A stretch of 64,000 bases of DNA from Sphingomonas faeni (GTDB taxonomy: Bacteria; Pseudomonadota; Alphaproteobacteria; Sphingomonadales; Sphingomonadaceae), in assembly GCF_030817315.1 (NCBI RefSeq), contig NZ_JAUSZF010000001.1:1534501-1598500 (forward strand). The letters are read 5' to 3'. Shown here piece by piece: positions 29,612 through 45,905 of the stretch. Position 1 is the stretch's first letter. Each line of letters opens with the position of its first letter. A model generated the notes under the pieces. The model had not been told where the DNA came from, ran no database searches, and saw nothing but the letters and a program-made list of their open reading frames with translations. Both the position numbers and the translations under genes were made by a program.

Positions 29612-31498
29612 TTACCCGAACATCCGCTTCATCGAGCGTTCGAGCATGACGAACTGCCACAGTGTACGCCCATGCTCGGCGCGACCCATCCGGTGCTCGT
29701 CGGCGATCCGCGCGATCGTCGCCATGTCGAACCACCCGGTCTCCCCCAGCGTGCGCGACTTGGCGAGCGCGGTCGCCTCCCCCGCCAGCGCGCCGCGGAA
29801 CCAGGCGCTGATTGGCGTCACGAAGCCCATCTTCTGCCGATAGAGGATGTCGCGCGGCAGATACGGCTCCATCGCCTTCTTCATCAGCCATTTTCCCTCG
29901 CCGTGCCGCAACCGCATGTTGGCGGGCAGCGTCGCGCAGAACTCGACCAGGCGGTGGTCGAGCAACGGCTCACGCGCCTCGAGGCCGACCGCCATGCTGG
30001 TGCGGTCGACCTTGGTGAGAATATCGCCGGGCAGCCAATGCTTGATGTCGGCATATTGCGCGCGGTCGATCGCGTCGCGCGCCGGAGCGTTCGCCATCGT
30101 CGCGACATAGCGGTCTTCGGCGCGGTACCCACCGAGCTTCGCGCGTGCGCCTCCGTTGAACAACTGCGCGCGCAGTTCCGGCGTGGTGACGCCGACCGAG
30201 CGAGCATAGGCCTCGCCGCCACCCTGCGCGAGTGCGAGCAGCGTCGACTTAGCGCGAAGCGGCCGCGGCGCCCAGTCGGCCTTTGGATACCAGCGCCCGA
30301 GCGTACCGAAGACGTCGGCGCGGAGATGCGAGGGCAGCAAGCCGCGGACGCGCTCCTCGACCGACTGGAACTTGTAGCGGCGGTATCCGGCGAGTGCTTC
30401 GTCCGCACCGTCCCCGGACAGCGCGACGGTGACGCTTTCGCGAGCCAGCGCACAGACCTGATAGGTGGCGAGCGCGGAGGCATCGGCGAAGGGTTCGTCG
30501 AAGCTCGCGACCAGCGTATCGATCAACCCGAAATCACCTGATGCGACGACGCGCTCGCGGTGATCGGTCGCGAAACGGCGCGCGACCGTGTTGGCATAGC
30601 TGCGTTCGTCGTGCCCGGCCTCGTCGAACCCGATCGTGCAGGTGCGAACCGCCTTCGGGCTAGCCTCCGCCATAAGCGCAACGACCGCGGAGCTATCTAC
30701 CCCGCCCGACAGGAACGCGCCGAGCGGTACGTCGGCGACCATTCGCGAGCGCACGCCCGTGCGCATCCGGTCGACCAGTTCCTCGCCCAGCGTCTTGGCG
30801 GAACCAGTCGCGCGGTTGGAGAAGTCGATGTCCCACCATTTGCGCGGCTGCGGTACAGACTTGCCGCGCTCGACCAGCAGGAAGTGCCCCGCAGCAAGCT
30901 TCTTCACGCCCGCGACCATGCAGGAATCATCGGGCACGTACCCGAACGCCAGGTAATCCTCGACCGCGCCGAGATCAGGTACCCGCCGGAGCTGCGGATG
31001 CGCGAGCAGGCCCTTCAACTCGGACGCGAACGCCAGCGATCCGTCCGCCAGCTCGACATAGTGGAGCGGCTTCACGCCCATCCGATCGCGCGCGAGGAAC
31101 AGCGTGTGCGCAGCGGTGTCGTGGATCGCAAAGGCGAACATCCCGTTCAGCCGATCGAGCATCGACGGCCCCCAGGCGCGCCAGGCGTGCAGCAGGACTT
31201 CGGTGTCACCCGCTGTGCGGAAAATCGCGCCCTTTGCGGTCAGTTCGTCGCGCAGTTCGGCGAAGTTATACACCTCCCCATTATAGGTGATCGTCAGCGA
31301 GCCGTCGGACATAGGCTGCGGCGAACCTTTGAGGTCGATGATCGACAAGCGGCGATGGCCGAGGCCGACACCAGGTGCGGTCCAGATGCCATCGCCGTCC
31401 GGCCCACGGTGCGACAGCGCGGCGATCATCGCATGGACGCGGTTCGGGTCGACCGGCTTAGGCGTACCCGGATGGAAGATCCCGGCGATGCCGCACAT
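29612..31498 (-). CDS. Exosortase-A-associated amidotransferase (asparagine synthase-like)
   Basis: The 628-residue protein starts MCGIAGIF, so Cys2 can act as the glutaminase nucleophile. The N-terminal GATase domain (HRGPDGDGIW, GLGHRRLSIIDL, TYNGEVYNF) is followed by an ATP-PP synthase domain (FLSGGVDSSAVVALMAEAS, LSGDGADEALAGYRRYKFQ). The whole resembles the PEP-CTERM/XrtA-associated amidotransferase family rather than housekeeping AsnB. It probably amidates a sugar in an exopolysaccharide. The reading frame is intact, yet the exosortase gene directly upstream is ruined, so its original partners may be gone. Confidence 0.9.
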   Translation of the reverse strand: MCGIAGIFHPGTPKPVDPNRVHAMIAALSHRGPDGDGIWTAPGVGLGHRRLSIIDLKGSPQPMSDGSLTITYNGEVYNFAELRDELTAKGAIFRTAGDTEVLLHAWRAWGPSMLDRLNGMFAFAIHDTAAHTLFLARDRMGVKPLHYVELADGSLAFASELKGLLAHPQLRRVPDLGAVEDYLAFGYVPDDSCMVAGVKKLAAGHFLLVERGKSVPQPRKWWDIDFSNRATGSAKTLGEELVDRMRTGVRSRMVADVPLGAFLSGGVDSSAVVALMAEASPKAVRTCTIGFDEAGHDERSYANTVARRFATDHRERVVASGDFGLIDTLVASFDEPFADASALATYQVCALARESVTVALSGDGADEALAGYRRYKFQSVEERVRGLLPSHLRADVFGTLGRWYPKADWAPRPLRAKSTLLALAQGGGEAYARSVGVTTPELRAQLFNGGARAKLGGYRAEDRYVATMANAPARDAIDRAQYADIKHWLPGDILTKVDRTSMAVGLEAREPLLDHRLVEFCATLPANMRLRHGEGKWLMKKAMEPYLPRDILYRQKMGFVTPISAWFRGALAGEATALAKSRTLGETGWFDMATIARIADEHRMGRAEHGRTLWQFVMLERSMKRMFG

Positions 31499-32957
31499 CT
31501 AGCGCATTCCCGCAGCGTGATCCGCGACCGGCGCGATAGGCCCGAGCGCGGCGAGGAAGCGTGTGATCGGGCGCGGGTCGGCGCCCTCGACCGAGAGGTG
31601 GATCGCTACCGCGCGTTGCGGGCCGCCGAACAGTCGGGCCTTCATCGTTTCGATCTTCACCAGCGTTTCGTCCTGCGTGGTCGTGTCGGCGACCCGGTAC
31701 CACGTCGCGACGATCCGCTCTACGGGTCCGGGCGCCGTGATCCGCATGACGCTACCGGCTGCGATTTCGGGTAGATCGGCGACGCGAACCCAGCGATCTT
31801 CCTCGCGCAGGACGCCGGTCCCGTATGCGATCAGTTCCTTGCCCTCCTGCTGGCTGCCGAACACCGCGATGCTCATGTCGACCCGCGCACCCGACACATC
31901 AGCATAGCGGCCGAACAGATAATGGTCCCGCCGGGGTAATAGGGCGCCCAGGGCGCGCGCGTGCTGATCGGAACGCGGTGCCAGCCAGAAACGTCCGGCA
32001 AGTCGATATGCGCATGCAGCGGCTGCGCGCGACCCGCGATCGCTGCGCTCCAGGCCGGGAACGCCCCTACCGTAGCGAGCACCAGCGCAGTGGCGATGGC
32101 GAGATCGGTCCGGTGCCTCGGTATGGCCTGAAGACGCGCGGGATCGAACGCAGGATCATCGGGCGCGCGATCGAACCAGCGCCAGCCGATCGCCAGCACG
32201 CCCGCCATGACGAGCGCGAAGAACACCCATCCATAGACGATGTGGTCGATCCCGGTCGCCGCTTCTACCGAGGTGAGGTCCGCCGCCCAGATAGTCCGAA
32301 CGCGCGGAGGTCATTGGCGATGACGGGGAGGATGATCGAGACCGCGAGGAACACCGCGCAGCGCTTCCACGACACGAAGCACAGGTTGGCGACGAGCACT
32401 CCGAACGCAACCATCGCAATGACGAACTTGGCGCCCGAACAGGCTTCCGCCACCTCGAAATAATAGCGGCCGGCGTGGATCACGCACGCCGTAGACTACC
32501 GCTGGTACGCCGACCAAATGGAGCAACGGCATGACGATCGCGACCGTCACGGTCTGCAACGGCGGTTTGAGACCTTCGCCGATCGGCACGGGAAAAACGC
32601 GTAGGCGAGCGGGAAGAGCAATGCTCGCGCGACATTGGGGGCCAAGGATGGCGAGGATCGCGCCTTGCAGCATCATGACGAGCCCAAGCTGGCGCGCGAA
32701 CCCGACGGAGGCGGCGTCGCCCATCAGTCAGCCGAAACCCCCGACCGCGAGCCCAGGCCACCAGCCGGCCGGCGTGAGCGGGCGAGTTCGGCACGGCGTT
32801 GCCAAACGAGCCATGCAATCACTGGGCCGATGAAGAGGCAGTGCCCGAAGGTGGTGCTCGTCCACCAGATATGCGCGAGATCGGCGACGTCGCTTCAAAA
32901 CGTCAGCAGGATCAGCGCCGCGACGACCGCAAGCGCGAGCGCGTGACGACGCCACAC
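31499..32957 (-). pseudogene. xrtA: Exosortase A (XrtA) with EpsI-like C-terminus, disrupted
   Basis: Pieces of a membrane exosortase are spread over several frames. From the GTG at 32957: WRRHALALAVVAALILLTF, an in-frame TGA (32895-32897), IWWTSTTFGHCLFIGPVIAW, a frame change, WWPGLAVGGFG and another TGA (32728-32730), then ARQLGLVMMLQGAILAILG and PLLHLVGVPAVVYGV. A further frame has VAEACSGAKFVIAM with the catalytic Cys and IANDLRAFG with the Arg. Another frame has IDHIVYGWVFFALVMAGVLA with the His. The last frame holds an EpsI/DUF3485-like tail (VDMSIAVFGSQQEGKELI). At least two nonsense codons and about four frameshifts mean no working protease/transpeptidase. Confidence 0.85.
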
Positions 32958-32959
32958 GG

Positions 32960-33345
32960 TCAAACCGGAAGGCCGAGCAGCGCGTCCAGCGGCCCGAGGC
33001 GTGCGTCCCAACCGTAACGGCGCATGACCTGCGCACGCGCCGATTGCCCGAGCGTTGCAGCGACGTCGGGGGCTTCGAGCAACTCGCAGATGCGGTCTGC
33101 GAACTCCTGCGTGGTCGTGGCGACGAGGATCGTGTCGGCATGGTCGATGCCTTCGGCCGCAGCTGTCGAGGCGACCGCCGGCCTCGCCATCGCCTCGAGC
33201 ACCTTGTTCTGGATGCCGCGCGCGAGTTTCAGCGGCGCGACACAAACGTCCGCGGCGTCGAGCCAGCCGCGGACATCATCGACCTTGCCGGTGACGGTGA
33301 CGTGATCGCTAGCCAGACCCCGCACGGCGGATGGCGACCGCCCTT
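32960..33345 (-). pseudogene. Glycosyltransferase remnant (exosortase-A-associated type), C-terminus only
   Basis: Only the last ~115 residues of a GT4-like sugar transferase survive: HVTVTGKVDDVRGWLDAADV, then APLKLARGIQNKVLEAMARP and AQVMRRYGWDARLGPLDALL before the stop. The family is normally close to 400 residues. The 5' part has been deleted, and the remnant abuts a truncated FemAB gene near 33340. It has no start of its own. The usual gene order (FemAB, transferase, exosortase) supports the identity. Confidence 0.75.
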
Positions 33346-33999
33346 CCCTCGAGGCGAACCGTGAGAACACCCGCGTCCATAACACCCGCAACGCTTCGGA
33401 AAAGTTTGGTGGGAAAAACCGGCGTACCGAGATTGCGAACCGACTCGGCGTAAACGCGGTAATGCTCGGCGAGCAGCTTCCGATGACGATGTCCAAGCCA
33501 AAACCGAGCGCGCGGCGGACTTCGGCACGCTGCTTCCGGGGAATCGCGAGCAGTTCCGCATCACCGTCCGCTGCCAGATCGCGAACGAAGCCTATATAGC
33601 TCGTGTCGTTACTATCCCAGCTATTCGGCGCAGGGCCTCACCGCAATTCTACCGAGGCGCAGCCGATCCGCAGCGCAAGGTTCCAAGCCCCCACCGACAA
33701 CTCTTCGACCGCGTCACCCGGTACGCCGCCATCAACGCGAACCCGGTCGAAACCAGTGCGCGCCCGAACATGGACGAGCGCATTTCGGTCAATGGCAGAA
33801 CGCCGACGATCGCCCCTTCGCGCTCCGAAACCAGATAGTGCGCACGCTGGCCGCAACCGTCCTGCACCGCGAGGCTCCAAGCCGGCAGGTGAAACGGCGT
33901 GCCGCCGTCGGTAACCTCGACGAACGCCGTGATGCGCGCGCATTGAGCCGGATCGCGAAGGTCCACTTCGCGCACGCCGACGGGCATCGGCGCGGTCAC
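33346..33999 (-). pseudogene. FemAB-like protein (XrtA/PEP-CTERM-associated), frameshifted and truncated
   Basis: The N-terminus begins at GTG 33999, overlapping the deacetylase stop. It reads GVREVDLRDPAQCARITAFV, TPFHLPAWSLAVQDGCGQRA and VGVLPLTEMRSSMFGRALVS. The frame is then lost. Later segments appear in other frames: SYIGFVRDLAADGDAELLAI, RKQRAEVRRAL and AEHYRVYAESVRNLGTPVFP. The C-terminal half of the acyltransferase domain is missing where the glycosyltransferase remnant begins. FemAB-like proteins add amino-acyl groups to cell-surface polymers; this copy cannot. Confidence 0.75.
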
Positions 34000-34797
34000 G
34001 CCAGTCGGACCGCTTCGCGTGCGACGACCGTATCCACCCGGCCCCATGCATGTCGATCGAGCAACCCGAGGAGCTTGCCCGCCATCGCCCCCAAACGCGA
34101 ATAGTCACGAAACTTCGTGCGCATTGGTGCCGCCGCGACACGCGGTTGCGCAGGGTCGATCTCCCACGGGTGGAAGTAGGACATCGCCGGACGGTCTTCC
34201 TGGTTGACCTGGCGTACCGCGAAGTCGGTGATCGCCGCCGGGAGCAGACGGAAGAACCCGCCGCCGGTGGCCAGCTTGAGCTCGCCGAACTTGGCCACCG
34301 TCACCGGGACTTCGATCAACGCGCTGTCGGCAAGCGGCTTGAAGCCATAGCACGGCGTGTCGAGCCAGCCATAATGATCGTGCTTCAACGGCGCGACGCT
34401 GGAGGAATAGTCATAGCCCGCCTCGGCCAGTTCGACATGCGCCCAAGGCGTACGCTGGTCGATCGAGAAGCTCGGCGCGCGATACCCCGTGACCTTCGTC
34501 CCCGCTGCGTCCTCGATCGCGGCCCGAGCACGCGCAAGGTCCGCGCGAAACACGTCGGGCGTCATCGTGAAGATGCGCTGGTGATCCCAGCCATGGCTGG
34601 CAACCTCAGCGCGAAGAACGTCGCCTCCGTATCGCGCTCGGCGAACAGCGCCAGGACCGCATCGGTGTTCGCCTCGACCCGGGTCTGGAGCGAGTCCCAG
34701 TCAGCCTTGTCGATGACCTTTCGAACGCGCCGACCTGAAACCACTCTTCAACATCGACCGACATACTATTGATAACGGGGCCACTGAGAACAGCCAT
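33996..34797 (-). pseudogene. Polysaccharide deacetylase (XrtA-associated), frameshifted
   Basis: From the ATG at 34797 the frame reads INSMSVDVEEWFQVGAFE, containing the catalytic Asp motif. It then shifts to KADWDSLQTRVEANTDAVLA and RDTEATFF. It shifts again, with part of the expected central segment missing, to the long final frame TPDVFRADLARARAAIEDAA...GYRAPSFSIDQRTPW...MSYFHPWEIDPAQPR. The metal-site and C-terminal motifs are recognisable. The last 189 codons form an open frame that automatic annotation could mistake for a complete gene. Confidence 0.8.
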
Positions 34798-34798
34798 A

Positions 34799-35872
34799 TT
34801 ACGCGGCATCATGCCAAGCTGCGACGCCACGGATAGGCGCATATTCCGGCTTTTCGTTGTCGCTCTCGACCCAGTCGACCAGCAGCGTCAGCACGCGGCG
34901 GAGCGCCTTGTCCTGCATCTCCACACGTGCCTCCAGTTCGGCAAGCCGCTCCTCGACCGCAGGATCGGTGCGCGGCATAGTCCCACGCAGCGCACCGACC
35001 GGTTCGGGCGATGCGTCCGCAACGCGCGCACCCTTGCCCTTGTCGTTCGCGAGCACCGGCAGGTCGCCCTCCAGATCGCGCTGGATCGTCCGGACCGCGT
35101 CGCCGTCGATCACCGAGAGCTCGTCGATCGCGGCGTGCAACATTACCCGCCCCGCCAACTGGTTCAGGCGACGCGGCACGCCCGCCGACCCTGTAAAGAA
35201 CGCTGCGAACGCGTCATCGGTGAAGTCGGGGTTACCCGTCCACCCGACCACCGTCAGGCGGTGCGTGAGATACTCGGAGACCTCATGCTCTTCCATCGGA
35301 TCGAGATGATGGATCGCAATCACCCGCTGGCGGAGCTGTTCTAGGCGATCCGAGCCATGCAACCGGTCACGGAACTCGGGCTGGCCAAGCAGCACGATCT
35401 GCAACAGCGCGTGGCCGCCCGCCTGGAAGTTCGACAGCATCCGCAGTTCTTCGAGCGCATTCACGGGCAAAGCCTGCGCCTCGTCGACGATCAGCAGAGT
35501 GCGCTTGCCGGTCCGTGCGACCGAATGTAGCCCGCGCTCGATCGCGGTGAGCAGTTCGGCCTTGCTCAGCCCGGCCGGATCGACGTTCAGGTCGGTGGCC
35601 ACGATCCGCAGCAGGTCGTCCGCCTCAATCGCGGTCGACACGAGCTTGATCGCGTTCAGCCGCTGGTGGTCGATCGTGTCCATCAAATGGCCGACCAGCG
35701 TCGTCTTTCCCGCGCCGATATCGCCGGTGATGACGATGAAGCCCTCGCCCTGCGCCAGGCCATAGCCGAGATACGCCATCGCCTTGCGGTGGGTGGCGGT
35801 CTCGAACCAGAATTTGGGATCGGGGGTAAGCTGGAAGGGCCGACCCGTCAGTCCGTAATGTTCGTCGTACAT
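34799..35872 (-). CDS. XrtA/PEP-CTERM-associated AAA ATPase (ExeA-like)
   Basis: The 357-residue protein begins MYDEHYGLTGRPFQLTPDPK at ATG 35872 after GAAGGCGAG. Walker A is GDIGAGKTT (about residues 50-58), Walker B LLIVDEAQ (Asp130-Glu131), and GSAGVPRRLNQLAGR is the sensor-2-like region. Proline-, glutamate- and acid-rich sequence follows. This is the ExeA/GspA-like ATPase found in exosortase-A polysaccharide clusters. It is intact although the genes on both sides are damaged. Its job in the native system is thought to be secretion or assembly control; no precise function can be given. Confidence 0.88.
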   Translation of the reverse strand: MYDEHYGLTGRPFQLTPDPKFWFETATHRKAMAYLGYGLAQGEGFIVITGDIGAGKTTLVGHLMDTIDHQRLNAIKLVSTAIEADDLLRIVATDLNVDPAGLSKAELLTAIERGLHSVARTGKRTLLIVDEAQALPVNALEELRMLSNFQAGGHALLQIVLLGQPEFRDRLHGSDRLEQLRQRVIAIHHLDPMEEHEVSEYLTHRLTVVGWTGNPDFTDDAFAAFFTGSAGVPRRLNQLAGRVMLHAAIDELSVIDGDAVRTIQRDLEGDLPVLANDKGKGARVADASPEPVGALRGTMPRTDPAVEERLAELEARVEMQDKALRRVLTLLVDWVESDNEKPEYAPIRGVAAWHDAA

Positions 35873-35885
35873 CTGCTGCTCGCCT

Positions 35886-37130
35886 TCAGAACTGGTACCG
35901 CGCACCGATCAGCGCCTGCGCCGACCAGTCGTTGTCGAGGTCGCCGACCTTGAAGCTGTAAAGTCCAAGCGACGCGGTTGTGCCAAATCGCCCGAAATTA
36001 TGGAAATACGTCCCTGTCCCGCCATAGGACCATATGCCGATATCGCCGGGGATGTCGTCTACCCCGCTATCATAATAGTTGACGAACAGGTCGGCGTTGA
36101 CCCCGGAAACCCGGGTGAGCCTGCCGGTGTAGAATAGCTGGCCATAATAGCTCTCGTCGTCGAGGCCGGTGACGACCAGTCCGGGCGCAAGCCGTGGTGC
36201 ATACAGCTTGCGGTTCGCATAGCCTATGCCTGCGCCCCAGGTGGAACGTCCGCGGGTCGCGCTGATCACGCCGTCGATCCCGCGTGCGCGGTAGCTGGCG
36301 GTCGAGATCGACTGGAACACGTCGTTGAGGCAGCCGCCCGGTTGCGGACCGCTGGAGCCGAACAAGCAGCCGTTGAACTGCTGGCCGAAGCCCTGCTGGT
36401 TGCCGGTCAGGAAGCTCTTCGGCAGATTGCGGATGCCGGTCCGGAGCTGCCGGCCGAAGGTCTGCACGCCGTCATACACATTGACCGCGACGCCTACCGA
36501 TTGCGACGCCTGATAGGTCGCGGTGCCGGTGTAGCTGAGCGATCCGTAGCGGCGCCCGACATGCCCCTCCACCGAAGTGCGGCGATTGGGGCGCCAGACG
36601 ACGCCGGCGTCGTAATAGATGCCGTCGGTGCGATAGGCGACGCGACGCGGCGATGCCCCGTCGGTGACGAAGCGGCCGTCGCGATCGAGCACTGGCGTAC
36701 CGCTAGCATCGACGACCGCGTCCTTCTGGCTCGTCTCGATCTTCTCGTAACCGACGCCGGCGGTCAGTGCGACATAGGGCGAGATCGGCTGGAGTATGTC
36801 GCCGCGACCGTAATAACCCTCGTAGCGTTGCTTCAGCTGGCTGGCGGTCTCGCGATCATAGGCGCCGCTTAAAGTGATGCCGAACGGAGCGATCGCACCG
36901 GGACGTACCGAAGCGCTGGCGGTCATGGTGTTGCCGATCGGGTTGCGCCAGACGAAGATGTTGAGCTGGTCGAGCGGCCCGATTACGTACTCCTCGCCCG
37001 GCAATTCCTGGTTCGCGACGAATGCCGCAGGCAGCAACTGGGGACGCGTACCGGTGGTCGTGCAGGCACCGAGCTTGGTCGCGACGAGGCCTCGGGTCAG
37101 CAGGGACTGCGATACAGATCCGGAACGCAT
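35886..37130 (-). pseudogene. Deletion fusion: export protein N-terminus joined to outer-membrane beta-barrel C-terminus
   Basis: The ATG at 37130 opens a lipoprotein-like Wza/GfcE start (RSGSVSQSLLTRGLVATKLG, then ACTTTG and GEEYVIGPLDQLNIFVWRNP). Right after this the polysaccharide export domain stops. The frame continues as a beta-barrel protein (SGAYDRETASQLKQRYEGYY, YDAGVVWRPNRRTSVEGHVG, ending NDWSAQALIGARYQF), as found beside the XrtA-associated ATPase. In related clusters the rest of the export gene, a chain-length determinant and a tyrosine kinase lie between. A deletion near 36945 seems to have removed them while keeping frame. The 414-codon fusion is open but unlikely to work as either parent. 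Confidence 0.75.
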
Positions 37131-37266
37131 GGGCAACTTTCCTGGCGCCGCACCATCCATCGGTTGCTGACGGGCGGCTAGCTCAGCCTTCGCGATGCAA
37201 GTAACAGGTGAAGATAGCGTTAGGAGCGCGCCCAACCACGCACCGCCAAGGCACTGCAACTGCGCC

Positions 37267-38493
37267 TTATATCGCAGTAACGATCTCGGCGGCTGGTGGA
37301 TGCCCGAGAAACGCGGTCGGGCTGGCACTCGCCCCGTATGCGCCCGCCATGAAGATCGCGATGAGGTCGCCGACTTCGACCGGCGGGAGAGCGATCTTGT
37401 CACCGAGCCGGTCGAGCGGAGTACAGAGCGGACCGACGACGGACACGGTGTCCGCAGCCTCCTGGCCCATCCGCGCGGCGACCGCGATCGGATAGTTGCG
37501 GCGAACGACGGTGCCGAAATTGCCACTCGCCGCGAGTTGATGGTTCAGGCCGCCGTCGACAACGACGAAGGTCTCGCCTTGGCTCTCCTTCACGTCGATG
37601 ACGCGGGTCAGGTAGACGCCCGCCTCCGCCACGAGCCAGCGCCCGAGTTCGATTGCGAACCGCGTTTCGGCAAGGATTGCAGGACGGGATGCCAGCGCTT
37701 CGGCCAGCGCACCGCCGACCCGTTCGACGTCGAGCGCCACGTCCCCCGCAAAATACGGCACGCCAAAACCGCCGCCGAGATTGACGAGCGGCGGCGCGAC
37801 GCCCGACTCGTCCGCCAACCGTGCCGCGAGCGCGATCGTCGCCGCCTGCGTCTCGACGATCGCACCGGCATCGAGCGCCTGGCTGCCAGCATAGATATGA
37901 AAGCCGCGCCAGTCCGCGCCCGCCGCGACGACCGCCTTCACGAGCGCCGCCGCGCGCACGGCATCAACCCCGAACGGCGAAGCACGCCCCCCCATCCGCA
38001 TGCCCGAGCCGCGGAGTTCGATATCGGGATTCACGCGTACCGCCATGCGCGGCGTGAGGCTGAGCCGGTCGCCGATCGCGAACGTCCGCGCCGCTTCGCC
38101 TTCGGATTCAACGTTGAGCGTCGCACCGGCGGAAATCGCTGCAACGAGTTCGTCGTCACGCTTGCCGGGCCCGGCAAAACTGATCGAAGCCGCTGGCTTG
38201 ACTGCGAGCGCCTTGGCGAGTTCCCCCGAGGAAGCAACGTCGAGCCCGTCGACCAGCGGAGCGATGGTGGTCAGCAAGTCGGCATGCGGATTCGCCTTGA
38301 TAGCATAGTGCAGATCGATCGCCGGCATCGCCGCGCGAAATCGCGAGATGCGGGCGGCTACTACCGCCATGTCGTAGACGAACAGCGGTGTGTCGCCGGC
38401 GTGCATGGCCCAATCATCAGCCGCTCGGCCTGCGATGACTAACGCGTCTGTCTGCGCAGCAAACTCGGGAGGAAGAGCACCGATCGGTTTCAT
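37267..38493 (-). CDS. PLP-dependent decarboxylase, exosortase A system-associated
   Basis: This 408-residue alanine racemase/ornithine-DAP decarboxylase-fold enzyme starts at ATG 38493 behind GGAGGGGAG. Lys66 in LHYAIKANPHADLL should bind PLP. Other family marks are VDGLDVASSGELAKAL, HIYAGSQALDA, LGGGFGVPYF, AIELGRWLVAEAGVYLTRV and VVGPLCTPLDRLG. It is the type of decarboxylase fixed next to the acyl-CoA ligase and ACP in exosortase-A loci. It follows the ligase gene, from which it is separated by a palindromic repeat. The frame is intact; the substrate is unknown. Confidence 0.88.
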   Translation of the reverse strand: MKPIGALPPEFAAQTDALVIAGRAADDWAMHAGDTPLFVYDMAVVAARISRFRAAMPAIDLHYAIKANPHADLLTTIAPLVDGLDVASSGELAKALAVKPAASISFAGPGKRDDELVAAISAGATLNVESEGEAARTFAIGDRLSLTPRMAVRVNPDIELRGSGMRMGGRASPFGVDAVRAAALVKAVVAAGADWRGFHIYAGSQALDAGAIVETQAATIALAARLADESGVAPPLVNLGGGFGVPYFAGDVALDVERVGGALAEALASRPAILAETRFAIELGRWLVAEAGVYLTRVIDVKESQGETFVVVDGGLNHQLAASGNFGTVVRRNYPIAVAARMGQEAADTVSVVGPLCTPLDRLGDKIALPPVEVGDLIAIFMAGAYGASASPTAFLGHPPAAEIVTAI

Positions 38494-40163
38494 GACGCAC
38501 TCCCCTCCATGTTCCCCCGCGAAAGCGGGGGCCCAGACTGGACGCCCGCCTTCGCGAGGGAACAAGTTCTTACCTCAGCCGCGATGGCAGACCTATCCAG
38601 CTTCCCATTGGCATTACCCGGTAATTCATCCCGCCAGAGATACGCGCCGGGCTGCATGAAGCTAGGCAGTGCCGTCCGTAACCGCGCCCGCAACGCCGCC
38701 TCGCCGTTCGCGTCCCCGGCCAGCATCACCACGATCGCCTGCCCCAACCGCTCGTCCGGCACCCCAACCGCAACCGCCTCGCGCGCCTCGCCACCCGCCA
38801 GCACAGCTTCCTCCACTTCCAGCGGGCTGATCCGATTCCCGGCGCTCTTGATCATCTCGTCATCGCGCCCAACGAATCGCAAAAGCCCGTCCTCGCCCTC
38901 GACCACGGTATCCCCCGACCACACCGCCATGCCGTTGCCATCAGGTGCCGGCCGAAACCGCTGCGCCGTCCGCTCCACATCCCGCCAATAGCCTCGCGCA
39001 ACGAGCGGCCCAGCGTGCACCAGCTCCCCCGCCTCGCCCGGCGCGGCGCGCGTGCCGTTGGCCTTCACCACCAAAACCTCGGCAAACGGTATCGCCCGCC
39101 CCATCGCATCGGGATGCGCATCGATCAGCGCGGGATCGAGATAGGTCGATCGGAACGCCTCGGTCAGCCCATACATCGCGTACACATCCGCCGCCGGAAA
39201 CCGCTCCCGAAGCCCGTGCACGAGTCGCGGCGTCAGCGCGCCGCCAGAGTTGGTCAGCCGCTTCAACCGTGCCGCAGTCTCCGCCGGCCAGTCCGTCTCC
39301 AGCAGCTGCACCCACAAGGGCGGCACCCCCGCGAGCGTCGTCGCCCCGACCCGCTCGACCGCCTTCACCACGTCGCGCGCAACCAGATAATCGAGCGGCG
39401 CCACTGACGCCCCCGCCGCCCAGGTCGAGAACAGCTGGTTCTGGCCATAGTCGAACGAAAGCGGCAGCACGCCGAGCACGCGGTCTTCGGGCTCCAGCTT
39501 CAGATAATGCGCTACCGAGATCGCCCCCAGCCATAAATTCGCATGGCTGAGCATCACGCCTTTCGGTCGGCCGGTGGAGCCCGAGGTATAGAGGATCGCT
39601 GCGAGGGTGTCGGGATCGGCATCCGAAGGCCCCATCGTCTCTCGCTCGCGGTTCCCCAACGGAGGCCAGGGCCCAGTTGGGAGAACCATCGTAACAGCAC
39701 GTTGCGCGACACCATCGGCATCATCCCAACTGGACCCCGGCCTTCGCCGGGGAACCAACGGAAGGTCCGCCTCGTCGACGATCGAACACCCATCCGGAAC
39801 GTCCCCCTCGTTTAGCGTCCCAGCCCGCGCCCCCTGCGTCACCAGCAACCGCGCCCCGCTATCCCCAAGAATATGCGCAACCTGCGCCCGCCGCAGCAAC
39901 GGATTGACCGGCACATGCACGAGCCCCGCCCGCGCCACCGCCAATGGCATCAGGCACGCGGCGCGCGTCTTGGGCAGCCACGTGGCCACCCGATCGCCCG
40001 CCAACAGCCCCCGGCCGGCAAGCCACCCCGCCAGCGCCCCGACCCCAGCCTCAAGCTCGGCAAACGTCATCGCGCCGGTCTTGTCGACCAGCGCAACGGC
40101 GTCGGGCGCACCACGCAACGCGATGTGGTCAATGGGGTATGGCTTGGGGTCGAGCGCGATCAT
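38490..40163 (-). CDS. Acyl-CoA ligase (AMP-forming), exosortase A-associated, with two repeat-encoded segments
   Basis: The 557-residue ANL enzyme begins MIALDPKPYPIDHIALRG. AMP-binding motifs are intact: AAILYTSGSTGRPKGVMLSH, YAMYGLTEAFRSTYL, LRFVGRDDEMIKSAGNRISP and NANGKLDR. Two stretches look foreign. Residues about 136-172 (LVPRRRPGSSWDDADG onward) are encoded by a complete family A repeat. The last ~25 residues (SLAKAGVQSGPPLSRGNMEG) come from a family B repeat that has replaced the natural end. Both leave the frame open. The internal insert sits in a loop just before the P-loop, so the enzyme may still fold. It probably loads an acyl group onto the neighbouring ACP. Confidence 0.87.
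   Translation of the reverse strand: MIALDPKPYPIDHIALRGAPDAVALVDKTGAMTFAELEAGVGALAGWLAGRGLLAGDRVATWLPKTRAACLMPLAVARAGLVHVPVNPLLRRAQVAHILGDSGARLLVTQGARAGTLNEGDVPDGCSIVDEADLPLVPRRRPGSSWDDADGVAQRAVTMVLPTGPWPPLGNRERETMGPSDADPDTLAAILYTSGSTGRPKGVMLSHANLWLGAISVAHYLKLEPEDRVLGVLPLSFDYGQNQLFSTWAAGASVAPLDYLVARDVVKAVERVGATTLAGVPPLWVQLLETDWPAETAARLKRLTNSGGALTPRLVHGLRERFPAADVYAMYGLTEAFRSTYLDPALIDAHPDAMGRAIPFAEVLVVKANGTRAAPGEAGELVHAGPLVARGYWRDVERTAQRFRPAPDGNGMAVWSGDTVVEGEDGLLRFVGRDDEMIKSAGNRISPLEVEEAVLAGGEAREAVAVGVPDERLGQAIVVMLAGDANGEAALRARLRTALPSFMQPGAYLWRDELPGNANGKLDRSAIAAEVRTCSLAKAGVQSGPPLSRGNMEGSAS
38510..38564. repeat. Family B palindromic repeat overlapping a gene end
   Basis: TTCCCCCGCGAAAGCGGGGG is mirrored by CCCGCCTTCGCGAGGGAAC. 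Read on the minus strand it supplies the last codons of the acyl-CoA ligase and ends at the ribosome site of the decarboxylase gene. Confidence 0.75.
39650..39756. repeat. Family A palindromic repeat inside the acyl-CoA ligase gene
   Basis: GGTTCCCCAACGGAGGCCAG with GGGCCCAGTTGG at one end pairs with CCCAACTGGACCCC and GGCCTTCGCCGGGGAACC at the other. It is translated in frame as part of the ligase, an unusual place for an intergenic-type repeat. Confidence 0.8.
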
Positions 40164-40256
40164 GCGGCCCTGATAGCGCCAAGCCCCCATCGCGCGAACC
40201 CGTTGCCGAATTCACCCCCACACGCTAGCGCAGCCCGGTTCGTAACGGTTCAGGCG

Positions 40257-40535
40257 ATGCTCGTGATCTTCGAAGGTACTTCCCAAGTCGAAACGACGGT
40301 ACGCGCCGTCCTCGCCGACATCCTCGGCCTCAGCGCCGACCGAGTCGCGACGTTCACCGCCGACACGCCGCTGTTCGGTGCGCTGCCCGAACTCGATTCG
40401 ATGGCGGTGGCGAGCGTGCTCACCGAACTCGAGGACCGGCTCGGCATCCTGATCGAGGACGACGAGATCGACGGCGAGATGCTCGAGACATTCGGCGCGC
40501 TCGTCCAGTTCGCCGCGGGCAAGGCGCTGGTCTAA
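40257..40535 (+). CDS. Acyl carrier protein, exosortase A-associated
   Basis: The 92-residue acidic protein has the ACP four-helix pattern with the phosphopantetheine attachment Ser48 in ELDSMAVASVL. DILGLSADRVATF precedes it and EDRLGILIEDDEIDG follows. It is divergent from the acyl-CoA ligase and heads the rightward half of the cluster, before two ruined hydrolase genes. The frame is intact. It is distinct from the fatty-acid synthesis ACP and probably carries an acyl or aminoacyl group from the ligase. Confidence 0.85.
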   Translation: MLVIFEGTSQVETTVRAVLADILGLSADRVATFTADTPLFGALPELDSMAVASVLTELEDRLGILIEDDEIDGEMLETFGALVQFAAGKALV

Positions 40536-40563
40536 CCCTGACCGGGGTCTAGCCTCCGCCGGA

Positions 40564-41232
40564 ATGACCGGCCTCCGCTTCGATACCTATGACTGGCCCG
40601 GCGGACGCGAAGCCATGCTGCGATTCGGCCCCGACACCGGCCTGATCGTCATCACCGCCCCCCCCTGTTCGAAGAAGCGAACCGCACCCGCCAGTTCGCC
40701 TGCACGATCCTCCGCGCGCTCGCGGATCACGGCATCGGCAGCGTACTCCCCGACTTCCCCGGCACCGGCGAGGGTGTCGTGGCAGCAATCGACGCCAAAC
40801 TGTCCGACCAGCGCTAGGCCTATCGCGAACTAACGCAACCGCTTGGCGCCCATAGCTACGCGCTTTCGATAAGAAGCGCGCGCTACTCGATACCGACGCC
40901 GACCTCGCCGGCCGCTGGCACCTCGCTCCGCAAACGGGCGCAGACTCATCCGCGACCTGGAACGCACCCGCGCCCATTGCGGGTAAGTCCGGCCAGGGGG
41001 ACGAGTATGCCGGCAACAGCCTGTCGACCGAGATGCTCGCCGAACTCCGAGATGCCGTGCCGTGCGAGGGCGGACGGTACCGCGTCGTCCGCCTGGACAC
41101 CGATTCCCTACCCGCCGATGCAACCTACGCCGGATCGCCGCTCTGGCGTCGGTCGAAACCCGGCGCAATATCGCATTGGCACAGCAGCTTGCAGCCGATA
41201 TCGCACATTGGATAGCACCATTCGAAGGCTGA
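40564..41232 (+). pseudogene. Hydrolase 2, exosortase A system-associated, frameshifted
   Basis: It begins well (MTGLRFDTYDWPGGREAMLR, then FGPDTGLIVIT) but loses frame near 40660. The next parts lie in another frame (FEEANRTRQFACTILRALAD, HGIGSVLPDFPGTGE) and hit a stop at 40815. Later fragments (AGRWHLAPQTGA, DEYAGNSLSTEMLAELRD, APLWRR-like and ADIAHWIAPFEG before a TGA at 41230) are recognisable in further frames. The nearly full length with many indels points to decay in place. The product would have been an alpha/beta-hydrolase-like protein. Confidence 0.75.
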
Positions 41233-41986
41233 TCGGGTTCGCGTGCGAAGGCGAAACGCTTGCCGCTACGTTGGACGATGCACCCGGCACGACCGGACTG
41301 CTCATAGTCTCCGGCGGCAACGAAATCCGCAGCGGCCCACACCGCGGAATGGTAATGATAGCCCAACGCCTGGCCGCGACTGGCACGCCCGTATTCCGCT
41401 ATAACAGCCGCGGCGTAGGAGACTCTACGGGCGATAACGGTGGCTTCTTGAGCGCCAAGCTCGACCTGATCGCAGCTGTCGCCGCGTTCCGGAACGTAGC
41501 CCCGCATGTCACCCGCCTGATTGGCTTCGGCAATTGCGACGCAGCCAGCACGCTGGCGCTGTTCGGACGGTCGGCCGGCTTCGACAAGGTCGTTCTCGCC
41601 AACCCCTGGGTCATCGAACCGATCGACGACATCCCCCCGCCGCCGCCATCCGGCACCACTACCGCACAGCGTCGCGAGACCTGGCGACATGGCGCCGAAC
41701 GCCGTCCGGAAAGTAAGATATCACAAGATATACCAAGGGCTTGTTGAGGGTCATTCAGACTGGTGAGGAAAGCCGAAACCTGCTATCCGGCCCGGTCCTG
41801 ACCGCGATCGCAGCTTTGCAAACCAACGCCGCCGTCATCCTGGCCCGCGGCGACGCGACTGCCATGGCCTTCGCAGCGGCGGCCGGCACCGCCGTCCCGT
41901 CAGTGACGATCGACACCGACTCGCACAGCTTCACCGGTCCGGCGGCCGCCGCGCTGGAGACCGCACTTAGGCGTAACCTGGCCTAA
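41208..41986 (+). pseudogene. Hydrolase 1, exosortase A system-associated, frameshifted
   Basis: A TTG at 41208, overlapping the previous gene, leads into IRRLIGFACEGETLAATLDD, TGLLIVSGGNEIRSGPHRGM, FRYNSRGVGDSTGDNGGFLS and VLANPWVIEPIDD, a clear alpha/beta-hydrolase of the exosortase-A type. Around 41640-41740 the frame changes twice (an AAIRHHYRTASRDLATW segment, then LRVIQTGEESRNLLSGPVLT). The last part (AAVILARGDATAMAFAAAAG, TIDTDSHSFTGPAAAALETA) reaches a stop at 41986. Both early and late halves are well preserved, so inactivation may be more recent than for the exosortase. Confidence 0.75.
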
Positions 41987-42008: not shown

Positions 42009-42977
42009 TTATTCAGCGGCTTCGGCGAGTTCCGCGAACTCGGCCGCCGCCAGGAAGCGCTCGGCGTCCAGCGCCGCCATGCAACCCGTCCCAGCCGCCG
42101 TCACAGCCTGCCGATACACCTTGTCCGCGACGTCGCCGCACGCGAACACGCCCTCGACGCTGGTCCGCGTCGAGCCGGTCTCGACCGAGATATACCCATC
42201 CGAATCGAGATCGATATGCCCACGGAACAGCTCGGTCGCCGGATGGTGCCCGATCGCGACGAATCCCCCGTCGACCGCGAGCCGCGAGCGCTCGCCGGTC
42301 ACAGTGTCCTCGAGCTCAAGCGCGACCAGCCCCGCGTTGCCGCCGCCATCCACGAACTCGCGGACCTCTTTGTTCCACAGCACCGTCACGCCCTTGTGCG
42401 CGAACAGCCGCTCCTGGAGTATCTTCTCCGACCGGAGCGAATCGCGGCGGTGGATCAGCGTCACGTCGGGCGAGTGGTTGGTGAGGTAAAGCGCCTCCTC
42501 GACCGCAGTGTTGCCGCCGCCGATGACGGCCACCTTCTTGCCGCGATAGAAGAAGCCGTCGCAGGTCGCGCAGGCGCTGACGCCCTTGCCCTTCATCGGC
42601 TCCTCGCTGTCGATCCCGAGCCATTTCGCCTGCGCGCCGGTCGCGATCACTAGCGTATCGCCCTCGTAAACGTCGCCGCTGTCGCCGATCAGACGAAACG
42701 GGCGGCTGGTCAGGTCGACTTGGACGATCGTATCCCACATCATCCGCGTGCCGACATGCTCGGCCTGCGCCTGCATCTGCTCCATCAGCCACGGGCCCTG
42801 AATCACGTCCTTGAAGCCGGGATAGTTCTCGACGTCGGTGGTCGTGGTCAGCTGGCCGCCGGGCTGTATGCCCTGCACGACGATCGGTGCCATCCCGGCA
42901 CGCGCGCCATAGATCGCGGCAGAGAGCCCGGCGGGGCCCGAGCCGAGGATAAGCATCCGTGTGGTATGGGTAGTCAT
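42009..42977 (-). CDS. trxB: Thioredoxin-disulfide reductase
   Basis: The 322-residue flavoenzyme starts at ATG 42977 after AAGGAAC. It has the FAD-binding LILGSGPAGLSAAIYGARAG, the redox pair Cys136-Cys139 (SACATCDGFF), the NADPH-binding VAVIGGGNTAVEEALYL and a C-terminal FAD motif EGVFACGDVADKVYRQA. It reduces thioredoxin in the cytoplasm with NADPH. It is divergent from the molybdoenzyme gene across about 127 bases. The frame is intact, so the decay of the preceding cluster stops before it. Confidence 0.96.
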   Translation of the reverse strand: MTTHTTRMLILGSGPAGLSAAIYGARAGMAPIVVQGIQPGGQLTTTTDVENYPGFKDVIQGPWLMEQMQAQAEHVGTRMMWDTIVQVDLTSRPFRLIGDSGDVYEGDTLVIATGAQAKWLGIDSEEPMKGKGVSACATCDGFFYRGKKVAVIGGGNTAVEEALYLTNHSPDVTLIHRRDSLRSEKILQERLFAHKGVTVLWNKEVREFVDGGGNAGLVALELEDTVTGERSRLAVDGGFVAIGHHPATELFRGHIDLDSDGYISVETGSTRTSVEGVFACGDVADKVYRQAVTAAGTGCMAALDAERFLAAAEFAELAEAAE

Positions 42978-43104
42978 TGGAGTTCCTTGGAGATTCGAGA
43001 CTGCATCTAGTGGATGCGCGCCCAGATTTGAACCGCCGGTAAATCTGTCGCGCCTGCATCGAAAGCTTTGCCGCTTCGTTGGGGCTATAAAAGCGGAGAT
43101 GAGC

Positions 43105-45393
43105 ATGAGCGACGACCGGACCGTAGAGATCGAGGACTACACGGCACCAGCAGGCGGCTGGGGCTCGATGAAGTCGCTTGTGGAAATTTCCGTCCGCGAA
43201 AAGGTCGGGCCGGAAGTGATCCGCGAACTCACGCGGCAGAACAAGCCAGATGGCTTTGCCTGCGTGAGTTGCGCGTGGGGCAAGCCCGCGCACCCGCATG
43301 TCGCGGAGTTTTGCGAGAACGGAGCGAAGGCGACCGCGTGGGAACTGACCTCGTTCCGTGTCACCCCCGCATTCTTCGAGCAGCATACCGTTAGCGAACT
43401 GCTGAGCTGGAAGGATTACGATCTCGAACAGGCCGGGCGCCTGACGCATCCACTGAAATACGATCCGACCACCGACAAATACACCGCGTGCAGCTGGGAC
43501 GAGGCTTTCGCGGGAATCGGTGCCAAGCTGAAGACCTACGACCCGACCAAGGTCATTTTCTATGCCTCGGGTCGCGCCAGTCTCGAAACGTCATACATGT
43601 ATAGCCTGCTCGCGCGGATGTACGGCAGCCACAACCTGCCCGACAGCTCGAACATGTGCCACGAGACGACCTCGGTCGGGCTAAAGTCCGCGATCGGCTC
43701 GGCGGTCGGCACCATCCATCTCTCCGACTACGAGAAATGCGACGCGATCTTCTACTTCGGGCAGAATCCGGGCGTGAACAGCCCGCGGTTCCTGCACCCC
43801 TTGCGCGATTGTGCGAAGCGCGGGGTCGAGATCGTCGTGTTCAATCCGCTCAAGGAGCGCGGGCTGGAGAAATTCCAGGATCCGCAGAACCCGATCGAGA
43901 TGGTGACGGGCAAGTCGACGCCGATCGCCTCGCAATATCACCAAGTGAAGACCGGCGGCGACGTCGGCGCGATCATGGGGATGTGCAAATATCTGATCGA
44001 GGCGGATGACAACGCCAAGCGGATCAACGGTCTCCCCGTGCTCGACCATGCGTTTCTCGCCGAGCATACGACCGGCTTCGAGGCATTCGCCGAAGTCGCG
44101 CGCGCGACCGACTGGGCGACGATCGAGCATGAGAGCGGCCTAGCCCGCACCGAGATCGAGGCGGCGGCGAAGGTCTATGCCAAGTCGAAGGCAGTGATCG
44201 CAGTGTACGGCATGGGCCTGACCCAGCATGTCGGTGGGATCGACAACGTCCACATGGTCGTCAACCTCATGCTGCTGCGTGGCAACATCGGCAAGCCCGG
44301 CGCGGGCATGGGCCCGGTCCGCGGTCACTCGAACGTTCAGGGCCAGCGTACCGTCGGGATCACGGAGAAGCCCGAACTCGCGCCGCTCGACAAACTCGCC
44401 GAGCAATACGGGTTCGAGCCGCCACGCGAGAAGGGCTGGGACACGATCGAAGCGTGTGAGGCGGTGCTCGACGGCAGCGCGCAAGCATTCATCGGCCTCG
44501 GCGGCAATTTCGTCCGCGCGATCCCGGATCACGCGCGGATGGAGCCGAAATGGCGCGGCCTCGACTTGACGGTCCATATCGCGACCAAGCTCAACCGTTC
44601 GCACCTGTTGCCCGGCGAGACGTCGTATCTGCTCCCCTGCCTCGGCCGAATTGAGACGGATATGCAGGGCACCGGGCCGCAGAGCGTCTCGATCGAGGAT
44701 TCGTTCAGCCAAATCTACGGATCGAAGGGCAAAGCGACGCCGGCCGCCGAGACGCTGCTGTCCGAGCCAGCGATCGTCGCGGGGATCGCCAAGGCGACGC
44801 TCGCGCCCAATCCGAAACTCGACTGGGACGCATGGGTGCGGGATTATGCGCGCGTTCGCGATGCGATCGAGGTGACGTATCCCGAACTGTTCAAGGACTA
44901 TAACGCGAAGATGTTCACGCCCGGTGGCTTCTGGAAGGGTGTGCCCGCCGCGCACCGCGAGTGGAAGACCGAGAGCGGCAAGGCGGAGATCAACGTGCCG
45001 CAATCCCTCAACGTCACCGGGTTCGAGGAGGCGGAGGGCCGCTTCCGATTGATGACGCTGCGATCGAACGATCAGTTCAACACGACCGTCTACGGCTATC
45101 ACGACCGCTTCCGCGGCGTGAAGGGCACGCGTGACATCGTCTTCATGAACCGCAGCGACATGATCCGGATGGGGATCACCGACGGCGACGACGTCGACCT
45201 GGTCGGCGATGCGGGCGGCAATTCGGATCGCCGTCTCAACAAGCTGCGCGTGGTCGAATATTCAATCCCAGAGGGCTGCGTCGGTGCCTATTACCCCGAG
45301 AGCAACCTGCTCATGCCGGTCGCGCACCATGCCCGCGAAAGCCATGTGCCGGCGGCGAAATCGGTGCCGGTACGGATTGAGAAGACGCGCTGA
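43105..45393 (+). CDS. FdhF/YdeP-family molybdopterin oxidoreductase (copy 1)
   Basis: The 762-residue protein starts at an ATG six bases after GGAG; an ATG at 43099 sits on the ribosome site itself. Cys53, Cys56 and Cys70 (CVSC...EFCENG) may hold an Fe-S cluster. SNMCHETTSVGL (Cys185-His186) aligns with the Sec/Cys-His pair of formate dehydrogenase H, so Cys185 is the likely Mo ligand. MGLTQHVGG, RGNIGKPGAGMGPVRGHSNV and PCLGRIETDMQGTGPQSVS are typical of YdeP-like proteins. No signal peptide is seen, so it is cytoplasmic. The mobA and fdhD genes follow in overlap. The reaction is unproven; formate oxidation is a guess from neighbours. Confidence 0.88.
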   Translation: MSDDRTVEIEDYTAPAGGWGSMKSLVEISVREKVGPEVIRELTRQNKPDGFACVSCAWGKPAHPHVAEFCENGAKATAWELTSFRVTPAFFEQHTVSELLSWKDYDLEQAGRLTHPLKYDPTTDKYTACSWDEAFAGIGAKLKTYDPTKVIFYASGRASLETSYMYSLLARMYGSHNLPDSSNMCHETTSVGLKSAIGSAVGTIHLSDYEKCDAIFYFGQNPGVNSPRFLHPLRDCAKRGVEIVVFNPLKERGLEKFQDPQNPIEMVTGKSTPIASQYHQVKTGGDVGAIMGMCKYLIEADDNAKRINGLPVLDHAFLAEHTTGFEAFAEVARATDWATIEHESGLARTEIEAAAKVYAKSKAVIAVYGMGLTQHVGGIDNVHMVVNLMLLRGNIGKPGAGMGPVRGHSNVQGQRTVGITEKPELAPLDKLAEQYGFEPPREKGWDTIEACEAVLDGSAQAFIGLGGNFVRAIPDHARMEPKWRGLDLTVHIATKLNRSHLLPGETSYLLPCLGRIETDMQGTGPQSVSIEDSFSQIYGSKGKATPAAETLLSEPAIVAGIAKATLAPNPKLDWDAWVRDYARVRDAIEVTYPELFKDYNAKMFTPGGFWKGVPAAHREWKTESGKAEINVPQSLNVTGFEEAEGRFRLMTLRSNDQFNTTVYGYHDRFRGVKGTRDIVFMNRSDMIRMGITDGDDVDLVGDAGGNSDRRLNKLRVVEYSIPEGCVGAYYPESNLLMPVAHHARESHVPAAKSVPVRIEKTR

Positions 45394-45905
45394 CCGACAC
45401 GAATATCCTTGGCGTCGTATTGGCTGGTGGGCGATCGTCCCGGTTCGGTTCGGACAAGGCACGGGCGATGTTTCGAGGGCGTACGCTTTCCGAGCATGCG
45501 CGAGATTTGCTGGTGCCGTACGTCGATACGGCGGTCATCGTTGGCAGAGACGGCCCGATCGCCGACCTCCCCGGCCCCGATCTCGGCCCTTTGGGCGGGA
45601 TCGCCGGAGCGCTGTCCTATGCCGGCGAACGGGGTTTCACGTCGGTCCTGACGATCGCATGCGACATGCCGGTGCTGCCCGATGGTTTGCTGGCGGCGCT
45701 CGCACGGGGAGCGCCCGCCTATTGCCCGGATGCGCCGGTGCTCGGCCATTGGAATACCGCGTCGATAGAGGCTTTGCTTGAGCATATCGCGACATCGCCA
45801 CGCCGCTCGGTTCGCGGTTGGGCGGCGGCGATCGGCGCCGTGCCGATCGCTGCGCCCGCGCCGATCCTCAACATTAATACGCCGGAAGACATCGCCGCCC
45901 TATGA
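45390..45905 (+). CDS. mobA: Molybdenum cofactor guanylyltransferase
   Basis: The product is about 171 residues and attaches GMP to Mo-molybdopterin. The nucleotide-binding LAGGRSSRFGSDKARA, GPLGGIAGALSYA and CDMPVLPDGLL are clear MobA motifs. The start is unusual. No ATG or GTG exists between the last upstream stop and the motif. A CTG at 45390 overlapping the previous TGA keeps the first beta-strand (NILGVVLAGG), whereas the TTG at 45420 would cut it off. I use 45390. It lies between the molybdoenzyme and fdhD with four-base overlaps. The C-terminus is short compared with the ~190-residue E. coli protein. Confidence 0.83.
   Translation: MTDTNILGVVLAGGRSSRFGSDKARAMFRGRTLSEHARDLLVPYVDTAVIVGRDGPIADLPGPDLGPLGGIAGALSYAGERGFTSVLTIACDMPVLPDGLLAALARGAPAYCPDAPVLGHWNTASIEALLEHIATSPRRSVRGWAAAIGAVPIAAPAPILNINTPEDIAAL

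Follow-up and report, generated by a model that had tools for sequence, protein, structure and literature searches.

A 64,000-nucleotide stretch of DNA (the window; G000:C1:1534501-1598500) from G000, the Sphingomonas genome under study, which belongs to the S. faeni group, carries a decaying locus for the sorting enzyme exosortase A (XrtA) and for exopolysaccharide (EPS) export. It is highly likely that the whole XrtA circuit is being lost in this genome: the enzyme, the EPS export operon and the only protein that the enzyme seemingly processes, a Ser/Gly-rich protein encoded outside the window (hereafter the candidate substrate), with the genes that stay open probably forming a separable module. 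For the genus, a broader account is favored with somewhat less assurance. XrtA across Sphingomonas would be largely a one-substrate enzyme, its target an unlinked Ser/Gly-rich surface protein whose tail has drifted from VPEP to PVPAPP, below detection. The pair would have been lost together at least four times fully and once, in G000, would be in the course of being lost, and a module of acyl carrier protein (ACP), ligase and decarboxylase, in some cases with an ATPase and an amidotransferase, would repeatedly survive independently of XrtA.

The decaying locus

The locus is of the XrtA/PEP-CTERM exopolysaccharide type, the EpsH system treated by Haft et al. (2006; PMC1569441). Its ancestral set of 15 genes comprises the hydrolases, ACP, ligase, decarboxylase, export, chain-length, kinase, outer-membrane protein, ATPase, deacetylase, FemAB, glycosyltransferase, XrtA and amidotransferase genes. 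Genes were identified with NCBIfam, whose set for XrtA loci is TIGR03109, TIGR03027, TIGR03007, TIGR03018, TIGR03015, TIGR03006, TIGR03019, TIGR03087, TIGR02914, TIGR03108 and TIGR03098-3100, and were placed by tblastn of two complete loci (L040 and L041) against the window. Of the ancestral genes, 13 of 15 are found, whole or as remnants, and the ancestral order is kept. By ligase identity, the closest named relatives are S. faeni ERG1.4 (91%) and the Leaf230/PP-CE strains (85-87%). The reference genomes were S. faeni ERG1.4 (G095), a second comparison genome (G023) and a further close relative (G033). The features read as follows.

29612..31498, minus strand: XrtA/PEP-CTERM amidotransferase (TIGR03108), open, 628 amino acids; 894 bits in NCBIfam (cut-off 816.9), free of frameshifts and stops against both G095 and G023.
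31499..33000, minus strand: xrtA (exosortase A plus EpsI), pseudogene with frame changes and stops; TIGR03109 in four pieces below cut-off, EpsI end still matching TIGR02914.
32963..33343, minus strand: glycosyltransferase (TIGR03087) remnant, about the last third; tblastn covers query residues 282-409 of 411, deletion joint near 33331.
33333..33984, minus strand: FemAB-like (TIGR03019) pseudogene, C-terminus deleted; three frames and a stop in tblastn.
33999..34776, minus strand: polysaccharide deacetylase (TIGR03006) pseudogene; three frames in tblastn.
34799..35905, minus strand: XrtA-associated ATPase (TIGR03015), open, 368 amino acids; 319.6 bits, slightly below the cut-off of 324.5, over profile positions 1-267 of 269, free of frameshifts and stops against both G095 and G023.
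35886..37526, minus strand: in-frame fusion open reading frame (ORF), in which the export protein's N-terminal portion runs on into the outer-membrane protein's C-terminal portion, from tblastn; only 35 residues of TIGR03027 match in NCBIfam.
37267..38565, minus strand: pyridoxal-phosphate decarboxylase (TIGR03099), open, 432 amino acids; 525.9 bits (cut-off 478.45), clean against G095, one indel flagged against G023.
38490..40190, minus strand: acyl-CoA ligase (TIGR03098), open, 566 amino acids; 605.1 bits (cut-off 592.35), clean against G095, two indels flagged against G023.
40203..40535, plus strand: ACP, open, 110 amino acids; full-length 95% match to the Leaf230 ACP, weak NCBIfam ACP match.
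40576..41226, plus strand: hydrolase 2 pseudogene; tblastn segments spread over three frames, the frame changing three times, and a stop.
41208..41986, plus strand: hydrolase 1 (TIGR03100) pseudogene; two frames and a stop in tblastn.

Damage affects ten of the 15 genes, namely both hydrolase genes (1 and 2), those for export, chain length, tyrosine kinase, outer-membrane protein, deacetylase, FemAB and glycosyltransferase, and xrtA-epsI; the other five, for ACP, ligase, decarboxylase, ATPase and amidotransferase, are open. Summed against G095, the lesions number about 24, a figure that varies with the alignment. In that comparison xrtA has six frame-shifting indels and two in-frame stops, hydrolase 2 has five indels and one stop, hydrolase 1 and femAB each have two indels and one stop, and the deacetylase has one indel together with a 58-bp deletion. 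Two deletions are much larger. The first, of about 3.65 kb against G095 or 3.69 kb against G023, has its joint near position 36939; the export gene loses its end to it, the outer-membrane-protein gene loses its start, and the chain-length and tyrosine-kinase genes are gone entirely. It leaves an open chimeric ORF of 546 amino acids (35886-37526), which gene-calling programs might take for a gene. The second, of about 1.22 kb, has its joint near 33331, cuts off the end of femAB and eliminates most of the glycosyltransferase gene.

A first-pass annotation covering 31499..41986, just beyond which the amidotransferase sits, had read the gene order and remnants as a sphingomonad XrtA locus with six or more broken genes, at least two large deletions and five open genes. 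All of this is borne out, and alignment to intact Sphingomonas XrtA loci (G095 and G023) confirms the lesions. For the exosortase, the two in-frame stops and the shifts hold; both stops had been given as TGA, while the TIGR03109 pieces list TGA and TAG. These four pieces score 44-72 bits against a cut-off of 208, which makes the gene an XrtA pseudogene. A TIGR03109 search of the whole genome (E <= 0.001) gave four matches, all of them fragments in the locus, and no other exosortase, although a very distant one could escape it.

A damaged candidate substrate elsewhere in the genome

The top sub-threshold match to PF07589 in G000, at 17.1 bits, lies at the end of a Ser/Gly-rich ORF (P0001). This tail belongs to a protein of 292-400 amino acids with a conserved N-terminus, as read out in 24 relatives, which is usually single-copy and unlinked to xrtA in XrtA-bearing Sphingomonas. 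The protein consists of a hydrophobic N-terminus (MSVRMALAKLCAC-CGGA--GGGAVHVAE), a long Ser/Gly repeat and a nearly invariant tail (PAPVPAPPM-LLFG-helix-RKRF). The tail is PEP-CTERM-like in architecture: PVPAPPM, an Ala-rich stretch and R-K/R/Q-R-F at the C-terminus are present in 24 of 24 aligned rows, which were found by tail match and selected by tail pattern, so that they demonstrate uniformity and are not an unbiased sample. The alignment was drawn from 29 loci; L162 was dropped (wrong frame), and the pattern yielded no row for L156, L166, L167 or L171. By profile, P0001 falls outside the PEP-CTERM families, with 15.3 bits against 16 for TIGR02595 and 15.5 against 20.7 for PF07589, and five full-length relatives give 12.5-16.5 bits or no match. 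Two homologs, P0005 and P0009, which share the N-terminal family by eye, have VPEPS tails and carry PF07589. The tail would thus act as a divergent PEP-CTERM sorting signal. A protein search with the full-length substrate, in which the 7990 candidates sharing most words were scored, gave 34 matches, the named ones being hypothetical proteins. The literature search returned no paper joining exosortase, PEP-CTERM and Sphingomonas, and the matches to PEP-CTERM plus Sphingomonas concern other organisms by title.

In G000 this gene lies 203 kb from xrtA. The DNA of G000 and G023 is continuous on both sides of it at 87-88% identity, and G023 592497-593031 (about 535 bp) is missing at G000:C1:1363536. 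The gap holds the entire N-terminal match (G023 592561-592890), which begins at the start codon. G095 agrees, its N-terminal match (39375-39707) lying inside a gap at 39128-39765. The Ser/Gly repeat is also shorter in G000 than in G023, and what remains of the gene is a 103-codon ORF without the segment containing the start codon and N-terminus. G000 therefore has no functional XrtA system: the enzyme is broken, and the candidate substrate is without its start codon and N-terminal domain. Enzyme and apparent substrate seem to be decaying together, the cleavage that would link them being putative.

The candidate substrate across Sphingomonas

The association with XrtA was followed through a census of 267 Sphingomonas genomes at least 90% complete. 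XrtA scores above cut-off in 227 of these, 34 have only a different exosortase, four have no match, G000 has the pieces described above and G083 has a split gene. The second exosortase of the genus scores about 127-147 bits to TIGR03109 (127-142 bits in seven listed of the 34). The substrate tail matches 222 genomes, at one place or sometimes two, and is found in 218 of the 227 XrtA genomes against none of the 34 with the second exosortase alone. A profile of the N-terminal domain (A1) matches 229 genomes, namely 226 of the 227 with XrtA above cut-off plus G083, G066 and G245; it is absent from all 34 second-exosortase-only genomes and from G000, and present in two of the four exosortase-less ones. 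Both counts were read by hand with unlisted negatives obtained by subtraction, and the A1 count agrees with the tally of 229. The contrast for the N-terminal domain (226/227 vs 2/38) gives a Fisher p of 7e-41, uncorrected for kinship. This distribution suggests that XrtA most likely processes one unlinked protein with a tail below the PEP-CTERM cut-offs.

The open genes as a possible module

The four larger open genes have no frame-shifting indels or stops against G095. Alignment to G023 flags frame-shifting indels in the decarboxylase (one) and the ligase (two), although the ORF of each is open over its full length. Other lineages were compared through 12 reduced loci located by their ligase (L067, L074, L078, L104, L111, L114, L115, L118, L119, L122, L125 and L046); two short stretches without ligase, L184 and L185, were scanned as well. 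ACP and decarboxylase stand beside the ligase in all 12, and eight of the 12 are also without hydrolases or have other losses. S. abaci (L111) has ACP, ligase, decarboxylase, ATPase (68%) and amidotransferase (47%) without hydrolases, which is the set open in G000, and S. rubra (L122) has the same set minus the ATPase.

In L067, L074, L078, L111, L114, L115, L118 and L122, the ACP-ligase-decarboxylase set is found without EPS export genes alongside. In those lineages the set is likely an independent pathway.

Since ACP, ligase and decarboxylase occur without EPS export genes in other lineages, the five open genes of G000 may be more than "not yet hit". Their arrangement suggests a separable biosynthetic module with a presumed function and product of its own, which is the weaker part of the account. 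The alternative is that the five genes are open only because the decay is recent, that they are functionless, and that they will be lost too. This is unlikely, while having the best standing among the alternatives. In its favor, codon-position patterns do not tell the open genes from the broken ones once gene-specific rates are allowed for, and if just seven gene-level events are counted, the chance that all of them spare the open genes is about 0.05. It is opposed by the absence of any of the roughly 24 lesions from the open 35% of the ancestral coding length (for independent lesions, p about 3e-5), and by the retention of ACP and decarboxylase next to the ligase in every one of the 12 reduced loci.

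Enzyme or polysaccharide

Lineages in which the enzyme and the polysaccharide genes seem to have parted bear on which of the two the candidate substrate goes with. Fifty named genomes were examined, out of 80 loci found. The protein is present in 37 and missing from 13, which are eight of the 11 with reduced loci and five of the 39 others. Those five all belong to the S. trueperi/pituitosa/azotifigens group, with EPS genes complete to the end of the fetched stretch. A complete-looking EPS operon is seen in the S. trueperi group at L210, L084, L090, L098, L099 and L101.

In S. trueperi, the glycosyltransferase and amidotransferase genes directly adjoin with no XrtA between them (weak partial tblastn matches; EPS locus only, not the whole genome), and the genome has no N-terminal match of the candidate substrate. 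EPS genes can outlive the exosortase in S. trueperi. Because this species keeps its EPS genes without XrtA in place and without the protein, the candidate substrate appears to track XrtA rather than the EPS operon. The reduced loci that do have the protein are L104, L119 and L125, and XrtA is located elsewhere in G116 (same coordinates as the genome of L119) and G118 (consistent with that of L104). On a tree of ligase and decarboxylase from the 50 named genomes, the candidate substrate changes state at least four times, G000 being a further change; the four or more changes are read as losses. The tree also places L069 (QDFQ01000001.1), titled Arthrobacter sp. TPD3018, inside Sphingomonas with a typical Sphingomonas locus, and this entry is probably misnamed or contaminated.

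Alternatively, the Ser/Gly-rich protein would be a structural partner of the EPS, not a substrate of XrtA, and would be lost whenever the EPS system is lost, the locus still being in decay. Such a role fits G000, where the EPS export genes are damaged and the protein is as well, and the absence of the protein from eight of 11 genomes with reduced loci. It is nevertheless improbable in view of S. trueperi, where the operon is kept, XrtA is missing at its locus position and the protein is absent. Conversely, L104, L119 and L125 are reduced yet accompanied by the protein, two of them seemingly, by position, in the genomes with XrtA elsewhere (G116 and G118). The tail is moreover PEP-CTERM-like, and two homologs have VPEPS tails.

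Canonical PEP-CTERM proteins

No PF07589 match above cut-off was found in the G000 genome, nor in 125 of the 173 XrtA-only genomes (those with no other exosortase match). The latter include G023, G033, G072 and, by subtraction, G095. Among the remaining 48, three have 5-7 matches and the others 1-4, and some of these few matches may be the tail of the candidate substrate itself. All 34 second-exosortase-only genomes have at least 10 PEP-CTERM matches each, and 28 of the 54 with XrtA plus another exosortase match have at least five. These tallies were transcribed by hand; the 129 positive genomes in total agree with the search tally. Counter to a simple rule, G245 and G153 have 23 and 7 PEP-CTERM matches and no exosortase match, and two incomplete genomes with XrtA only have 16 (G007) and 23 (G012). 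In Sphingomonas, canonical PEP-CTERM proteins accompany the second exosortase, not XrtA.

The first-pass annotation had held that loss of XrtA should abolish PEP-CTERM sorting, with XrtA in G000 having formerly served canonical PEP-CTERM proteins that are now all gone. As stated, this is unsupported and very improbable: PF07589 above cut-off is indeed found nowhere in the genome, but 125 of 173 XrtA-only genomes are equally without, and the tallies within the genus contradict it. The absence of PEP-CTERM proteins that it had proposed as a test does obtain in G000, as does that of a second exosortase match, but the test is not diagnostic; given the same PEP-CTERM absence in those 125 genomes, it is no sign of lost sorting. 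The interpretation offered there is therefore partly supported.

Reality of the decay

In G095, G023 and G033, 14 of 14 reference genes each lie in one open frame at a coverage of 0.91-1.0, except for xrtA of G033 (0.80), whose reference is overlong. In each of nine named close relatives XrtA is matched once above cut-off, with no stops. When the ORFs of G023 were compared with the window, 43 of 70 were matched. Outside the locus, 30 of 33 window orthologs (the amidotransferase counted among the 33) are full length; of the three flagged, one runs off the edge of the window and the other two reach 77% and 87% coverage. Of the 27 unmatched ORFs, 25 fall outside the shared stretch and the other two correspond to the chain-length and kinase genes lost by deletion. 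The intact orthologs in three relatives and the mostly full-length flanks mean that the decay of the XrtA/EPS locus is real and lineage-specific.

Intactness was also scored over 91 targets, of which 88 were loci other than the window, G023 and G033, and most genes are intact in loci that are complete within the fetched stretch. Exceptions are hydrolase 1 and the ligase of L044 and the kinase of L075, each read in two segments; in a few loci the ATPase or kinase reference is covered only to 72-81%, and most glycosyltransferases are cut by the flank of the fetched stretch. XrtA in pieces below cut-off occurs in two of the 267 genomes, G000, with stops and deletions, and G083, and in G286 xrtA is divided by a contig end. 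The G083 gene (L181, G083:C1:2733000-2752999, a single contig) has three frame changes and no stop, and its scored neighbors are open; it is possibly a second fresh loss in which XrtA went first, or an assembly error.

The third-position share of window-specific changes is 72% in the open genes (65% for G095, 76% for G023), 56% in the broken genes (57% and 66%) and 89% in three flanking genes (82% and 83%), which fits recent decay. Assembly or sequencing errors, suggested by the fact that the lesions are known from assembled sequence and that many are single-base indels, have next to no chance of explaining the breaks, much as the first-pass annotation had judged of sequencing error in the exosortase: faulty base calling does not produce stop codons and deletions of about 3.65 kb, 1.22 kb, 535 bp and 58 bp, the lesions are restricted to the locus amid mostly full-length flanking orthologs (30/33) with intact counterparts in relatives, four genes inside the locus are free of frameshifts and stops against G095, and a second damaged gene, that of the candidate substrate, lies elsewhere in the genome.

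Adjoining the decaying locus, at 42961-46693 on the plus strand, are an intact FdhF/YdeP-type molybdopterin oxidoreductase gene (NCBIfam) and then two open ORFs, which from their sequence we take to be mobA and fdhD.

Mechanism and points of tension

In the favored account, the candidate substrate would be exported and then anchored in the inner membrane by its tail, XrtA would cut it near the PVPAPP region, and the cut protein would be passed on towards the EPS or the outer surface. The EPS/XrtA circuit most likely became dispensable in the lineage; EPS export genes or XrtA would have broken first, leaving partner genes functionless and open to decay, the separable biosynthetic module being retained meanwhile. 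Processing, localization and the order of loss are steps that we infer.

Several observations pull the other way. The tail falls below both curated PEP-CTERM cut-offs, and both the cleavage by XrtA and contact with it are putative. One XrtA genome, G013, has no match to the candidate substrate, possibly owing to an assembly gap. G066:C17 (L211) and G245:C1 (L212) have the candidate substrate with no detectable XrtA and no close XrtA-type amidotransferase; these are possibly cases of a lost enzyme with an orphan substrate, or assembly gaps. A pair test on the tree, with the reduced-locus label standing in for XrtA, gave three pairs with the association, none against and two with no difference (p = 0.25, few informative pairs). 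The absence of XrtA was checked in the EPS locus of S. trueperi only, not in the rest of its group. For the module, ligase presence in the reduced loci is by construction, the S. abaci amidotransferase, only 47% identical, may be a paralog, and codon positions do not set broken apart from open genes beyond the pattern in intact relatives.

Relation to known systems

Like the EpsH/XrtA system, the locus has the ancestral gene content and order, with a sorting enzyme linked to EPS genes. Unlike it, G000 has 10 of 15 genes broken or gone, and Sphingomonas XrtA would have one sub-threshold substrate, mostly without a family of PEP-CTERM proteins. The candidate substrate shares with PEP-CTERM proteins (PF07589/TIGR02595) a Pro-rich C-terminal motif, a short hydrophobic helix and a basic end, whereas the tested Sphingomonas tails have PVPAPP, lie below both cut-offs and usually occur in one copy per genome. 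XrtA belongs to the same enzyme superfamily as the second exosortase of Sphingomonas, which is absent from G000 and whose 34 sole-bearer genomes all have at least 10 PEP-CTERM matches.

XrtA-class enzymes usually have many targets. Dedicated one-enzyme one-target pairs among exosortases and archaeosortases were reportedly described by Haft and colleagues in 2012. Sphingomonas resembles these pairs in apparently having one enzyme with one target, and departs from them in that the target is encoded away from the enzyme and the enzyme is of the XrtA class.

Most XrtA-only Sphingomonas are without a recognizable PEP-CTERM protein, and a genome in decay points to a candidate for the missing target of their exosortase. 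In the EpsH study (Haft et al., 2006; PMC1569441), single low-scoring PEP-CTERM matches are set aside because they could be noise or remnants. The present result suggests that such matches can be real and can represent the sole substrate. A previously overlooked protein is thereby offered as half of a candidate one-enzyme one-substrate system.

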